Shown here: piece by piece, positions 2,419 to 37,604 of the stretch | Layout of the letters: the number at the start of each line of letters is the position of its first letter | Numbering within the stretch: position 1 is the first letter of the stretch | From: Thalassotalea euphylliae | GTDB taxonomy: Bacteria; Pseudomonadota; Gammaproteobacteria; Enterobacterales; Alteromonadaceae | Assembly (NCBI RefSeq): GCF_003390395.1 | Contig: NZ_QUOV01000001.1 | Coordinates: 3,534,001 to 3,598,000, forward strand | Direction: 5' to 3' | DNA: 64,000 nt | Translations under genes and position numbers: made by a program | The notes under the pieces: generated by a model | What the model saw: the letters and a program-made list of their open reading frames with translations, nothing else | What the model was told of the DNA's origin: nothing | The model's database searches: none

Positions 2419-3414
2419 TTAGTCGGCTTTTTCACTTTCCACCGAGGCTGGATTGTCGCCCTCTGTCTGGTTTTTCACTAACTTGTAGCTAATACGCATT
2501 CTAAAGGGCTCTTCTGGCGTGGTGAGATAAAAAGGAAAATTGTCGATATTCGGGCTGTTTGGGAAAAATTGTGGCTCTAAGCAAATACCGCCAAAACTTT
2601 CAAACTTACCGCCTAAATATTTGCCTGTATACACTTGTAAACCAGGATAACCACTTGATACATGAAGCTGCAATTGCTTATCGGGGCTGATCAACACGCC
2701 TTGAGATTCATCAGCGGGTCTACTGACGACAAAATTATGATCCAGATTATCTTTAGGCTGTTGAGGATCAAGCACACGTGGCTGGCGAAAATCCATACTC
2801 GTACCATCAACTGGGCAAATTTCACCGGTAGGTACGTTAGCGTCATCGACTTCGGTAAAGTTATCGGCAAATATTTGCAAAATATGCCCTGACGCACTTT
2901 CACCAACACCAGCCAAATTAAAGTAAGGATGTGTTGTTGGACCGACCACGGTTGCTTGCTCAGTTATTACTTTCATATCAATATCTAGCGAGCTGTCGTT
3001 GTTCAGGTGATAGGTTACCCAAAATACCATTGCGCCAGGATAACCATTATGACCATTTGCCAATTCACATTTTAGTGTCAGCACCTGCGTTTCTTGCGCC
3101 ACTAACTCCCAACACATGTGACTGATACTCTTGTCACCGCCGTGCAAATGGTTCGAGCCTTCATTGGCTTGTAAAGCAAACTCCTGATCATCAATAGAAA
3201 ACGCTGCGCCACCAATGCGATTAGCATAAGGACCAACTATCGCACCATGATAAAACGGGTCATCTAAATAATCACTAAGCGTTGAATAACCAAGAATAAT
3301 ATTGCGGTCTTTACCGAATACGTCGGTATGCCATTGCAATAAACGAGCGCCGTAATTAGAAATACAAACTTCATCACCTGCGTCGTTACAAAGTACGAAG
3401 GAACGTAACTCCAT
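2419..3414 (-). CDS. galM: Aldose 1-epimerase (galactose mutarotase)
   Basis: Cytoplasmic mutarotase that interconverts the alpha and beta anomers of galactose and glucose, feeding the Leloir pathway. 331 aa, near the usual 340. Family landmarks are GPYANRIGGA around residue 60, NEGSNHLHGG around residue 85, THPYFNL near residue 160 with the catalytic His, and CLEPQFFPNSPN near the C-terminus with the catalytic Glu. The ATG at 3414 is used because it opens the conserved domain directly. No other galactose genes are next to it. The upstream gene-free stretch suggests it is monocistronic. Confidence 0.93.
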   Translation of the reverse strand: MELRSFVLCNDAGDEVCISNYGARLLQWHTDVFGKDRNIILGYSTLSDYLDDPFYHGAIVGPYANRIGGAAFSIDDQEFALQANEGSNHLHGGDKSISHMCWELVAQETQVLTLKCELANGHNGYPGAMVFWVTYHLNNDSSLDIDMKVITEQATVVGPTTHPYFNLAGVGESASGHILQIFADNFTEVDDANVPTGEICPVDGTSMDFRQPRVLDPQQPKDNLDHNFVVSRPADESQGVLISPDKQLQLHVSSGYPGLQVYTGKYLGGKFESFGGICLEPQFFPNSPNIDNFPFYLTTPEEPFRMRISYKLVKNQTEGDNPASVESEKAD

Positions 3415-3731: not shown

Positions 3732-3752
3732 AATAAAAATAATTCTCATTTG
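3732..3752 (+). promoter_or_regulatory. Fur-box-like operator
   Basis: On the minus strand, TGAGAAT-N-ATTTTTA matches 11 of 14 informative positions of the 7-1-7 Fur consensus TGATAAT-N-ATTATCA. It sits directly upstream of the -35 hexamer of the + strand promoter at 3755-3782, where a repressor would block transcription. This is a motif-only call in AT-rich DNA. Confidence 0.4.
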
Positions 3753-3754
3753 AG

Positions 3755-3782
3755 TTTACTTTTGTTTTTTAGCTGTTATGAT
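3755..3782 (+). promoter_or_regulatory. Putative sigma70 promoter for candidate RNA
   Basis: TTTACT, a 16-bp spacer and TATGAT on the + strand, placing transcription start near 3789. No protein-coding gene lies downstream on this strand before a terminator at 4247-4273. Confidence 0.45.
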
Positions 3783-3788
3783 AGACCA

Positions 3789-4273
3789 CGATTAGAAAAT
3801 ACCAAGAGCAATCTTGGAGCTGAAGCCCAACTGATACCGACAGGCAGTTGTATGATTTGTGAAGCAATTAGCCCAGCTTCATCGGCTATCCCCCTAGCCG
3901 TTACAAATTAATTGCCTTTAGGTATCTTTTTCAGCACGTTCAGCTTATCGGAATATACAGATAAGCAACAGTTTCTATGATGGTAAATATGGATTAACGA
4001 ATATGAATTGGCGAATACCGGCCGATTAGTGCGTTAGAGGTTGTGCCATATTTACAAAGAAAAGTTTCCAAGCAAGCTCAGCGGCTGACAGTGTCATGTG
4101 TGCCCTCAGATAGCACTGTTGGTTGGCTGAGCACCCTAACTTAATCAGTTAGGAATGAAACCAGTTCACTCCCAGTGAAATGTGTAAGTGATACATTTAT
4201 CACATGTTACTTTGACAGCTTCCTTGACGGGAAAGCCCACTACCTTAAGCCCACATTATGTGGGCTTCTTTTT
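3789..4273 (+). ncRNA. Candidate large structured noncoding RNA (about 485 nt)
   Basis: The region has promoter-like boxes at one end and an intrinsic terminator at the other, but no ORF longer than about 20 codons. It is packed with paired arms. Stems: CCAAGA/TCTTGG (3802-3817); CAACTG/CAGTTG (3828-3850); TGAAGC/GCTTCA (3821-3881); CGGCTA/TAGCCG (3883-3900); GCAATTA/TAATTGC (3864-3915); GCTTATC/GATAAGC (3943-3966). A three-tier stem follows: GTAAATATGG/CCATATTTAC (3983-4055) enclosing TAACG/CGTTA and AATTGGC/GCCGATT. Next come GCTCAGC/GCTGAGC (4076-4132) enclosing ACAGTG/CACTGT, CCTAACT/AGTTAGG (4135-4153), TTCACT/AGTGAA (4165-4179) and GTGATA/TATCAC (4188-4203). The 3821-3881 and 3864-3915 pairings cross, so they are a pseudoknot or alternatives. 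I could not match it to tmRNA, RNase P RNA, 6S RNA or a known riboswitch. Confidence 0.6.
4247..4273 (+). terminator. Intrinsic terminator of the candidate RNA
   Basis: Stem AAGCCCAC/GTGGGCTT with an ATTAT loop, followed by C and five T residues on the + strand. The minus-strand side has no T run, so it serves + strand transcription and not the convergent lipoprotein gene. A second copy of the 5' arm (AAGCCCAC) lies just upstream at 4233-4240. Confidence 0.8.
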
Positions 4274-4286
4274 ATCTATTTTTTAT

Positions 4287-6035
4287 TTACTGCTTGATAA
4301 ACACCTGCACTTCATCAACTTTTGGAGTGCTATCTTCAGAAAGGTTCACTAAGTAAGAAAAGCCATTGTTCTCAAGAGTTAACTGATTTTGCGTACGCTG
4401 AGTGACAAATCGGTTAGGGATTTCGGTGCGCGGTTGACCTACATACAAACATTGCACACATGGTCTGCGCTGCGACTGATATTTATTACTTTCGAGTGTG
4501 TACTTGATCATATTGCCACGGACAAAGTCGACAATCAGCGAATTGCCATACACCCATACGTCTTTATTTCTCGCTTTAGGAATAGTAATGGTCGGCAGCC
4601 CTAGGGTATCGACAACATCATCTTTAGAAATCTTCCGTTTGCTCTCCAATAAGCCTTCGGTTAAATCAATAAAGGTTGTACTGCTTGCCAAAGCAACAAC
4701 ACCTTGCCAATCAAATTCCTGATACCCTCTAAAGTAAATCGAAATACCGCTCAGCTGTTTATTATTTGCTTTATCCGCCGAGGTGTTACCGTTGAAATAT
4801 AATCTCGTTAATGTTTTGCGTCCCTGAACACGCAGGGTATTAAAGCGCAATATTGGGGCTTTTAAATACAGCGCCTTACTCACCTGCAATAATGTACTGC
4901 CAATTTCTAACTCTTTATCAATGGTGATATCAGCACCGTACAGGTTATCGTGCAAAGGAATTCGATTGCTTAAATGGAGCGGTAATAGCCAGTCCGAATG
5001 TTCGTAACCAACAAAGGTGTCGCGATCAAACAAAAATAAATGTTTGCGCCCGTACAAGAATGCACTTTGCTTGCCAGATACCTTAATAATGGCTGAAGGC
5101 TCACCTAAAAGCGCTGTAACTTGTCGTTTATTCCAGCCCAACTGAGCACCTAAAATATCACCATTAACATCTATATTTTCATTAAATTGCGATGTGCTTG
5201 TTACCGCGTTAATACTCGCTGCTTGTGCATTACCCTGCGATTTTGTGCTAGCAGTACTTGCGACTCGCTCGACGTTAGCAATGTCAGCTAAGCTTTGCTC
5301 AGTTGTCGAGCTTCTGCGCGGAATAGCGCGTCGTGGCGTCAATCTTTGAGATGTCAGCTGTTTGGGCGTTTTTTGTCGCTTTGCTTGAGTCGCTACAACA
5401 GTATCTGCCGCTTGTTCTGCCACTACTTTTGTGGCTGAATTGAGTGTTGGCGCAATTGTCGATTTGGAATCGGTGAATGTAGAATCGTTTAGTGTCGAAT
5501 CAGTTAGCGCTAATGCAGCTGTAGTGATAGCACCAGACTTAAGCAAAGCAATGTTTGACTCGCCTTTGGCATTAAAATTAGTAATCTTTCCACCAGTTGC
5601 CTTGGCTAGAGTCTCTTTGTCCTGACACAATACGATAGCTTCTGCCGTCATTCTGTGACGTTTTGCTTTGATTGTTCGATTTTCCTGGGTTCGGATTCTA
5701 ATTTGCGTTGTTTGATAATCCGTAATTGCGATGGCATCAGCACCCAATTTTTCAGCGCGCTGTTTCAGCTGTAAAATAGCTTCATCTACCGAATTCTTTG
5801 CCAACTTGGATGAAATTTTGGCATTGCGAGGGTAACTTTTCAGCTGCTGGTGCTCGGAAGCTGAAATCCCGCTAAAGCCAGAAACCTCACCAAGCACATG
5901 ATAGGGGCAATTAGGGTAATAGTTTAAAACAACAACATTAGCTGGCGCGGAGTAAGTACTTGATTGGTTGGTATCAGAAGTGCTACCACAGCCTAATAGG
6001 GCTATAGGGAGTAAGAATACTAAAGCTCGTAACAT
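4287..6035 (-). CDS. Lipoprotein with RcsF-like and BamE-like regions
   Basis: Unrecognised 582-aa predicted lipoprotein. The signal peptide ends in a lipobox (LLGCG, Cys about residue 16). Residues about 35-140 resemble the RcsF/YbjQ fold type (cysteine near NYYPNCPYHVLGEV, then AEKLGADAIAITDY). A Ser/Thr/Lys-rich, probably disordered linker follows (about 165-285). The second half (from about 290) has BamE/SmpA-like pieces (LGWNKRQVTALLGEPSAI; later DVVDTLGLPTITIP), suggesting two related copies. The ATG at 6035 is chosen; an adjacent GTG at 6038 is possible. It converges on the candidate RNA. Envelope localisation is well supported, but the function is unknown. Confidence 0.7.
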   Translation of the reverse strand: MLRALVFLLPIALLGCGSTSDTNQSSTYSAPANVVVLNYYPNCPYHVLGEVSGFSGISASEHQQLKSYPRNAKISSKLAKNSVDEAILQLKQRAEKLGADAIAITDYQTTQIRIRTQENRTIKAKRHRMTAEAIVLCQDKETLAKATGGKITNFNAKGESNIALLKSGAITTAALALTDSTLNDSTFTDSKSTIAPTLNSATKVVAEQAADTVVATQAKRQKTPKQLTSQRLTPRRAIPRRSSTTEQSLADIANVERVASTASTKSQGNAQAASINAVTSTSQFNENIDVNGDILGAQLGWNKRQVTALLGEPSAIIKVSGKQSAFLYGRKHLFLFDRDTFVGYEHSDWLLPLHLSNRIPLHDNLYGADITIDKELEIGSTLLQVSKALYLKAPILRFNTLRVQGRKTLTRLYFNGNTSADKANNKQLSGISIYFRGYQEFDWQGVVALASSTTFIDLTEGLLESKRKISKDDVVDTLGLPTITIPKARNKDVWVYGNSLIVDFVRGNMIKYTLESNKYQSQRRPCVQCLYVGQPRTEIPNRFVTQRTQNQLTLENNGFSYLVNLSEDSTPKVDEVQVFIKQ

Positions 6036-6235
6036 CACAATAATCCGTTATTTTTGTTATTTTAGTGATTAGCATGCATGTAAAAGTGAGGTGATTAACC
6101 TCGAGTTAACCCAGCGTAAGTAGGTAACAAGCACGATTTAGTCTAAAAAAGTGCTTAACATGCAACCTACTACGCTAGCGAATTTAACAAATTATTTCAA
6201 TAGCATTAGCTCGTAATAAGAGTTATTGATTGAGG

Positions 6236-8101: not shown

Positions 8102-9398
8102 TTCTTAACACTTGTTGGCTTACTCTGCGACGTAAATGTAAGTAAGCCAGCGTAACTAACACCAATAAAGCGCCAATAACACCGATAAGTACGCGGTAGT
8201 TTTGCAATGTCTGGTTTTGCGCCACTAATTGCTTATGCACACCTTCCGAATTTAACCGGATCACTTCATTATTGAGCTTAGCAACCCCTAACACTTTGGC
8301 CGCTTGCTGCTGCCGAGTAAGTTTATCGTTAGCTAAATTAAAATAACCTTGCTGTGCCTTATTTAAAGAGCGGTGATCTTGCTGGTATGTGTGCCAATGA
8401 ATCAGCAACTCATAAAGCCCTAAACGGCTAATTGCTTGTTCACCATCATTAGCAATATATTGCGAAAAGTGTTGTTTTATTGTCTGCTCCATGCATTCGT
8501 ACTGGGCTAATTGCCAGCACGACAAGCCCTTAAGAATTGCTAATTTCTCATCAAACGAGGGAGAGCTAAAATCAGTTTTCTCAAAATACTGGCTCTGCAC
8601 TGTTAATACTTTGCGATAATCAGCTTGCAGGTAAGCTAAATAGCTTTTTGCATAATGAAACAAATAGTGTTCGAATTCACTTTGTGAACTCGCTAAGCGC
8701 TCTTCATACAATGCCAAACGTTGCTCTGCCAAGCTGAGTTCTTTTGCATCCAAGTATGCATCGATGAGATTAAACAACGTGAGCAAGTAATCATCCGCAG
8801 CCAATTGTTCACTTAATGCCAATGCCTTTTCTGCTTCTTCAGCAGAAAGCTGATTTTGTTCTAACATGTAATACACAAATGATAACTGGTTGTGAATCAC
8901 CAATTGTAAGTTCAGGCTATCCATATCAGCAGCGATCTGATTAAGCTCATATAAGCGCTTCAACGCATGTTGAGTATTGTCGTCATAAACATTGCAGAAC
9001 GAAAAGTAATTCAACTCAGCACGAATAGAAAGCAGCTCACTATTGCTGTTCATGCCATGTGCCATCGAAAGCTTTGCAGCCGCACAGCTATTGTCATCGG
9101 CAATATTATTTAGATTAACACTTTGTAAAATATAGGCGTAGGTCAGTTGTTTGCTAGACAAGTCTGCGGGCTTTGATAGCACTGGACTCAATGCCTCAAT
9201 GGAGGCTTGATGCTGATCTTGGCAATGTAACAACACCGCATTGATTAAGCCATCAAGCGCTGAATTTTGTTGCGCTATCGGCTGTTTGTATTTAGCCAAG
9301 GTGTGCTTACAAATGTGGGGGTCTTCTACATCAAACGAAGCACCAATTGCAGTATTGCACAGCAAGAAAAACGCGGTAAGAACGCGAAAAATATTCAT
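8085..9398 (-). CDS. Membrane-anchored TPR-like protein
   Basis: 437 aa. An N-terminal signal peptide (MNIFRVLTAFFLLCNTAIGA) is followed by about 350 residues of helical, leucine/alanine-rich TPR-like sequence, presumably periplasmic. A single transmembrane helix follows at about residues 402-422 (LIGVIGALLVLVTLAYLHL). The protein stops 15 residues later (LRRRVSQQVLRINELK). The signal peptide-TPR-TM layout is common in TPR sensors that continue into a coiled coil and a GGDEF or histidine kinase domain. Here the output domain is missing and the end overlaps the HDOD gene tail-to-tail. Whether it is a truncated sensor or a complete scaffold cannot be decided from sequence alone. Confidence 0.75.
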   Translation of the reverse strand: MNIFRVLTAFFLLCNTAIGASFDVEDPHICKHTLAKYKQPIAQQNSALDGLINAVLLHCQDQHQASIEALSPVLSKPADLSSKQLTYAYILQSVNLNNIADDNSCAAAKLSMAHGMNSNSELLSIRAELNYFSFCNVYDDNTQHALKRLYELNQIAADMDSLNLQLVIHNQLSFVYYMLEQNQLSAEEAEKALALSEQLAADDYLLTLFNLIDAYLDAKELSLAEQRLALYEERLASSQSEFEHYLFHYAKSYLAYLQADYRKVLTVQSQYFEKTDFSSPSFDEKLAILKGLSCWQLAQYECMEQTIKQHFSQYIANDGEQAISRLGLYELLIHWHTYQQDHRSLNKAQQGYFNLANDKLTRQQQAAKVLGVAKLNNEVIRLNSEGVHKQLVAQNQTLQNYRVLIGVIGALLVLVTLAYLHLRRRVSQQVLRINELK

Positions 9399-37527: not shown

Positions 37528-37604
37528 AGGGGTATAGTTCCAATTGGTAGAACAGCGGTCTCCAAAACCGACGGTTGGGAGTTCGAATCTCTCTACCCCT
37601 GCCA
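37528..37604 (+). tRNA. trnW: tRNA-Trp (anticodon CCA)
   Basis: Acceptor stem AGGGGTA/TACCCCT (37528-37534 and 37594-37600), discriminator G, encoded CCA end at 37602-37604. The anticodon arm CGGTCTCCAAAACCG presents CCA. The T arm GGGAG-TTCGAAT-CTCTC is well formed. It stands alone and is followed by a T-rich stretch without a hairpin. Confidence 0.96.

Follow-up and report, generated by a model that had tools for sequence, protein, structure and literature searches.

A conserved structured RNA in Thalassotalea that appears to combine the leader and 3' UTR of a heme-receptor mRNA lacking its reading frame

The window analysed here is a 64,000-nucleotide stretch of the Thalassotalea euphylliae genome. 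Within this 64-kb window an RNA at 3789-4273 (+ strand) has galM on one side and a lipoprotein gene on the other, each encoded on the - strand. The original prediction had placed a structured RNA at these coordinates, which hold, with promoter-like boxes before it and a strong + strand terminator at its end; both signals are found (Table 1), and since the two neighbouring genes lie on the - strand the terminator serves neither of them. The promoter segment 3727-3784 is identical to that of two congeners at 55/58 (G001) and 52/58 (G006) positions. The predicted fold of 3789-4273 has an energy of -159.3 kcal/mol, as against -119.1 (sd 6.0) for dinucleotide shuffles (z -6.7), and none of 100 shuffles was as low; whole-RNA folds of the counterparts in G006 and G004 give z -6.4 and -5.9. 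The two nested domains that had been described, a three-tier stem at 3983-4055 with a 10-bp outer helix and further helices nested within it, and a second domain at 4076-4132, are both present in the predicted fold, the second with a conserved UGUGCCCU loop.

Table 1. Features of the RNA locus (positions in the window).
Feature	Position	Strand	Basis or remark
galM (aldose 1-epimerase)	2419-3414	-	PF01263, E 3.3e-73; syntenic marker
Fur-box-like element TAAAAATAATTCTCA	3734-3748	+	just upstream of -35; 11/14 consensus matches
Promoter	3755-3782	+	-35 TTTACT (3755-3760), extended -10 TGTTATGAT ending at 3782; consensus scan
5' domain, homologous to heme-receptor mRNA 5' leader	3785-3931	+	model R1; leader position in congeners
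P1 closing helix GATACC/GGTATC, then U5 (3927-3931)	3833-3926	+	pairs in 7/7 species
Hairpin P4 TGAAGC/GCTTCA	3860-3881	+	loop with UUAGCCCA in 4 species
Hairpin P5 CGGCTA-UCCCCC-TAGCCG	3883-3900	+	slide control, 6 species
Linker replacing coding region	3932-4063	+	contains three-tier stem 3983-4055
3' domain, homologous to heme-receptor mRNA 3' UTR, terminator-ended	4064-4273	+	ordered elements in congeners
Hairpin D	4076-4132	+	loop UGUGCCCU (4099-4106) in 7/7 species
UACUUUGACAGC, candidate pairing segment	4208-4219	+	identical in 6/7 species
Intrinsic terminator	4247-4273	+	stem 4247-4267, then CTTTTT

The stretch 3783-4273 looks non-coding, as had been claimed, and only the stated limit of about 20 codons for any open reading frame is slightly off. 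Two ATG-start frames of at least 20 codons overlap it, one of 23 codons on the - strand and one of 32 codons on the + strand, the latter starting inside the terminator; with GTG or TTG starts the + strand holds frames of 53, 40 and 54 codons, the 53-codon frame starting upstream of the -10 box and carrying a one-base deletion in G001. A small protein encoded at the locus was rejected on this survey and on that deletion. The neighbouring lipoprotein-like gene (4287-6038, - strand, 583 aa) is without a Pfam match. Its relatives lie downstream of the RNA or of a receptor gene in G001, G003 and G005 (two copies), with one in G013, of another genus; it has no match in G002, G004 or G006, and a function of the RNA tied to this gene was rejected on that account.

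Across the whole window the sole Rfam match at the gathering threshold is a tRNA at 37528-37601. No family reaches its gathering score at the RNA locus, in keeping with the claim that no known-family consensus is present, and the relatives' loci (L095, L106, L024, L012 and L010) likewise gave no match at that score; membership of a known Rfam family was rejected on these grounds, and so was tmRNA, of which none was found. At a relaxed E-value six sub-threshold matches appear near the locus, most of them covering the terminator. When 150 of the roughly 1500-1800 first-look candidates in each genome were scored, RyhB was found at E <= 0.001 in none of the seven genus genomes, and at the RNA locus its model reaches 19.8 bits, over the terminator, compared with a gathering score of 55; membership of the RyhB family was accordingly dropped. 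Among the titles and abstract openings listed in a weak search of the open-licence literature, none gives an account of this RNA, nor of a bacterial RNA made from the UTRs of a lost gene.

The genus set comprises seven genomes, G000 (that of the window) to G006, and the best match to galM is present in all of them. A blastn search with 531 bases against 60 relatives gave matches at E <= 0.001 in seven genomes, five of them in the genus: G000 itself, G001 and G006, plus 5'-end matches in G002 and G004. The matches in G018 and G046 extend over the terminator alone and were discounted as chance. The five genus members found by blastn served to build a covariance model of the 5' part (R1), which matches 6 of 98 relatives, namely the training genomes and G005 (E 7.2e-12). 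The divergent 5' part of G003 was missed by R1 and recognised by eye, as GCGATTAGAAAATGAAG..GATCCC..GGTCCCCCTAAACC..GGGATC. An exact pattern run across 395 genomes of the family matched five, all within the genus, and a contig scan with the exact 5' motif gave 59 stretches. CCCCCT and GATACC are present as well in two of these, from G002 and G004, and the remaining 57 were set aside as chance.

The position of these homologues points to the origin of the RNA. G002 and G005 have the 5' domain ahead of a receptor gene, as does G003 in divergent form. The gene in G005 encodes a TonB-dependent receptor of 734 aa and has its ATG 28 nt beyond the end of the closing helix; the protein passes the curated cut-offs of two heme/hemoglobin receptor models, TIGR01786 (373.9 versus 323.75) and TIGR01785 (358 versus 316.85). 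On the 3' side of the receptor stop codon, the same three genomes carry the elements of the 3' part of the window RNA in unchanged order: GTTTC(C)AAGC, the hairpin with GCTCA/TGAGC as its outer arms and loop UGUGCCCU, CTTTGAC, and the terminator GCCCA/TGGGC. Since its 5' part corresponds to the leader and its 3' part matches the receptor 3' UTR, the window RNA reads as a leader joined to a 3' UTR, and its descent from receptor UTRs is well supported by these matches of both parts in three congeners. Leader and 3' part are retained together in all four receptor-less genomes (G000, G001, G006 and G004). Of the suggestion that the RNA could be a new large class, one half stands, in that it is a genuine conserved structured RNA without an Rfam family; the other does not, as it is no free-standing class but the leader and 3' UTR of a receptor mRNA.

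Receptor orthologs of other genera (G028 and G033) are without such a leader within 900 nt upstream; the locus of G019, in opposite orientation, was judged by eye only. In G033 (L111) a D-like hairpin, CTCCAAGCAGGTTCAG...CTGAGCCACC, with a different loop, was seen by eye 3' of the receptor; from its presence in that 3' UTR, the 3' element could predate the leader. The leader of G002 (L024, about 8483-8744) holds a MITE-like insertion between the 3' arms of P2 and P1, bounded by the terminal inverted repeats AGGGTCTGTTGATCTTTC ... GAAAGATCAACAGACCCT, and the receptor frame behind it contains one in-frame TAA.

Covariation across the homologues was counted on hand-set helices, because the MAFFT alignments (A1, A2, A4 and A5) misplace the hairpin arms. 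Changes on both sides are seen in 22 of the 48 pairs (up to seven species), and 24 of 311 cells are unpaired, on helices whose hand-setting favours pairing by construction. Loop-anchored slide controls score lower. In the inner helix of D, 6 of 8 pairs show double changes and 41/42 cells are paired, compared with at most 30/42 when slid; a slide of +3 still keeps 30/42 cells and four double changes, against six unslid. P4 has double changes in 5 of its 6 pairs (four species) and 20/20 cells paired, with at most 9/20 slid, while P5 has 34/36 paired versus at most 14/36 (six species) and five double changes, against three at slides of +2 or +3. P5 also has a compensatory pair between G000 and G001. 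Double changes are fewer in P1 (one, A-T to C-G, in G003) and in the terminator stem (2 of 9 pairs, seven species). The CCCCC of the leader is present in 7/7 species; the U of its loop is C in G006, and the stem is shifted in G003. Fold prediction for both G000 and G006 pairs the leader segment GCUGAAG (3819-3825) with UUUCAGC (3929-3935, after P1), one pair shorter in G006; this pairing would cover part of the U-run.

Sequence constraint was compared over the leader (3785-3931), linker (3932-4056) and 3' part (4057-4275), gap columns being left uncounted. Between G000 and G001 the leader is identical at 142/146 positions and the 3' part at 217/219, compared with 94/111 in the linker (14 gap columns) and 284/311 in the upstream intergenic DNA (Fisher, leader plus 3' part, p 1.8e-7 versus linker and p 2e-5 versus upstream intergenic). 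Between G000 and G006 the values are 132/146 (90%) for the leader and 189/217 (87%) for the 3' part, against 42/82 (51%) for the linker (43 gap columns), 126/213 for the upstream intergenic DNA and 46/118 at the four-fold sites of galM, which are saturated. Strong constraint on both ends of the RNA, and not on the linker, is thus well supported by sequence comparison among G000, G001 and G006. For G004 versus G002, identity in the leader (124/149, 83%) and 3' part (233/264, 88%) is close to that at galM four-fold sites (109/133, 82%), so this pair gives no sign of extra constraint.

The linker itself varies widely. In G000, G006 and G004 the linkers are mutually unrelated in sequence, and each has a lower fold energy than its shuffles (z -2.4, -3.0 and -2.7, with 5, 2 and 1 of 200 as low, respectively). 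The three-tier stem, which had been singled out as the most telling part of the RNA, lies in this fast-evolving linker, to which the linkers of G006 and G004 are unrelated. G001 retains the outer helix of this stem, where one compensatory change can be read from the alignment. Conservation falls instead on three elements: the junction of the leader, including the CCCCC loop; hairpin D (4076-4132), including the UGUGCCCU loop; and the terminator. Searches of the linkers and upstream DNA for remnants of the receptor or of the divergent operon gave chance-level matches only (best blastn E 0.021, tblastn E 0.024).

A receptor search at E <= 1e-100, in which no more than 18 candidates were scored in any genome, matched 11 of 60 relatives. 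Orthologs 66-100% identical are found in G002, G003 and G005; G000, G001 and G006 have only a 37%-identical receptor paralog at this threshold, and G004 has no match at it, again with up to 18 candidates scored. In the receptor-bearing genomes a divergent MotA/ExbB-like gene, a DUF2149 gene and a CobN-like gene lie across the promoter from the receptor. The MotA/ExbB-like gene occurs in 3/7 genus genomes, the same three that bear the receptor, and neither it nor the receptor was found in G000, G001, G006 or G004. The receptor of these three congeners thus occupies the syntenic site close to galM, which directly adjoins in G002, with two genes between in G003 and at least two in G005; beyond the receptor, all three genomes carry further genes common to the right side of the window, including what we take to be an ATP-grasp-like gene.

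In a tree of the galM protein, G002 and G004 are sisters (100/100) and G000, G001 and G006 form a group (98/99). On this tree the receptor-less state requires two changes, and two losses of the receptor are the simplest reading, the number of loss events being uncertain. The locus of G004, from an assembly 93% complete with about 5% contamination in about 220 contigs, may have been exchanged by recombination: its linker holds no trace of the receptor of G002, and its 33-nt box/-35 stretch is of the G000 type, with one difference from G000 as against four from its sister G002. Over 70 nt of promoter it is 50/70 identical to G000 and to G002 each. At 3734-3765 and its counterparts (L009, L010, L012, L024, L095 and L106) the receptor-less genomes share AAATAAAAAYAATTCTCATTTGRGTTTACTTTT; at the same place AAATAATAATTATTCTCATTTGTRTTTACATT stands in G002 and G005, with a closely similar sequence in G003. 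The grouping of G004 with G000 here could reflect either recombination or parallel silencing of the divergent promoter of the lost operon.

The element upstream of the -35 was scored against the 7-1-7 consensus of Fur. It matches at 13 of 14 positions in G033, 12 in G002, G003 and G005, 11 in G000 and G004, and 10 in G001 and G006; as 22 places in the 64-kb window score at least 11/14, the box score alone is not significant. For the combined box/-35 pattern AATNATTCTCATTTGNGTTTAC, the top match, with 0 or 1 mismatch, falls at this locus in 7/7 genus genomes. At up to three mismatches there are 14 matches, of which seven lie off the locus, versus nine in the reversed control, giving no excess; the other match in G000 is flanked by a periplasmic-binding-protein gene on one side and, on the other, by the 37%-identical TonB receptor paralog. 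Fur control of the ancestral receptor gene appears likely and, through the putative box, Fur control of the window RNA plausible; iron control overall is moderately supported.

Taken together, the RNA is probably a heme-receptor mRNA that has lost its reading frame and been kept as a regulatory RNA. The receptor gene's own promoter, with a Fur-type box beside its -35, would yield a transcript of about 485 nt in which a linker rich in hairpins joins the former leader to the former 3' UTR and its terminator. Iron scarcity would relieve repression by Fur and allow transcription, and the RNA would then regulate other transcripts in trans by base pairing. That the promoter and both UTRs were retained without a protein is best explained by such a trans-acting RNA produced under iron shortage. 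The proposed role resembles that of RusT, an iron-starvation RNA of Caulobacter whose targets are described as including many outer-membrane transporters, a likeness by description and not by sequence to an RNA that is controlled by NtrYX (PMC11005374). The conserved C-rich loops of the window RNA (CCCCC and UGUGCCCU in 7/7 species, UUAGCCCA in four) may make contact with G-rich stretches such as ribosome-binding sites. RNAIII of Staphylococcus aureus, of about 500 nt with many hairpins, uses C-rich loops against ribosome-binding sites; the window RNA is like it in size, hairpins and C-rich loops, a function of its own loops being only proposed, and the sequence comparison, made through Rfam only, gave no match at the locus. 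CCC runs are not enriched in G000 (10 versus 8.4 in dinucleotide shuffles, with 296 of 1000 having as many) or in G006 (223 of 1000), so the case for the C-rich loops rests on their conservation and not on composition. For the candidate pairing segment at 4208-4219, matches in the genomes to the complement of an 11-nt 3' stretch, 27 besides the RNA itself, are not in excess of the reversed-pattern control (29), and this search yielded no target.

The two conserved ends could be divided in function, the 5' domain remaining a cis switch (a riboswitch or attenuator with P1 and the U-run at its end) that gates a 3'-UTR-derived small RNA, with only the 3' domain acting in trans. The junction architecture with its conserved unpaired stretches is compatible with a riboswitch mechanism, the U-run starts no more than two bases after P1 in G000, G001, G006, G005 and G002, and the joint retention of both parts in 4/4 receptor-less genomes would be expected. 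There is a precedent in Rli51, the 5' UTR of Listeria mpl, described as both a cis attenuator and a trans-acting small RNA that binds the transcript of a heme-binding protein (PMC11394854). P1, however, is weak as a terminator stem, with 6 bp and a large enclosed structure, a clean U-run is absent in G004 and G003, and no Rfam aptamer matches at the locus or the relatives' loci; we consider a cis switch possible but unlikely. Rli51 would share with the window RNA a 5' UTR acting in trans and a link to heme. Unlike Rli51, which still fronts its gene, the window RNA has lost its gene and has its 5' part fused to a 3' UTR, and the two are likened by description, not by sequence (PMC11394854).

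It is more doubtful still that the RNA is a sponge, titrating a former regulator of the receptor mRNA, whether another small RNA or an RNA-binding protein. Receptor-bearing and receptor-less forms do alike carry the CCCCC and UGUGCCCU loops, but no partner is known, and RyhB is missing from the candidates scored, as given above. Least probable is a decaying relic whose UTRs are functionless leftovers of the lost gene. The receptor has been lost, the in-frame stop and leader insertion of G002 show that decay occurs in the genus, and the near-neutral identity of G004 and G002 fits it; among G000, G001 and G006, however, the leader and 3' part stand far above linker, upstream intergenic DNA and silent sites, and with the compensatory pair in P5 this largely refutes a relic in these three genomes.

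The preferred reading, a receptor mRNA turned regulatory RNA, has relatives in kind. Small RNAs derived from 3' UTRs, such as CpxQ and SdhX, resemble the window RNA in that a conserved 3' UTR supplies both a terminator of its own and unpaired segments that are themselves conserved, but in the window the 3' UTR has no coding gene and bears a 5' leader. RyhB and PrrF are Fur-repressed, iron-sparing small RNAs of about 90-110 nt; the window RNA would probably be under Fur control and serve in iron shortage as they do, while differing in its 485 nt, in its origin from a receptor mRNA and in belonging to a genus where RyhB was found in 0/7 genomes.

UTR-derived small RNAs are well known, and usually the coding gene is still present, so that selection on a UTR for the sake of the RNA is hard to separate from selection for expression of the protein. 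Here the protein has been removed and both UTRs have been kept, which makes an independent role of the mRNA ends directly testable. The UTRs probably had a regulatory job already while the gene encoded a receptor, and would have outlived the frame for that reason. We give about even chances to the wider view that an mRNA became a non-coding RNA by loss of its whole frame, the frameless form being present on two branches of the genus, with promoter, leader and 3' UTR under selection and the receptor mRNA having been dual-function before. If this is true, the regulatory work of the mRNA ends has outlived the protein, and messengers that lose their frame would offer a concrete route to regulatory RNAs.
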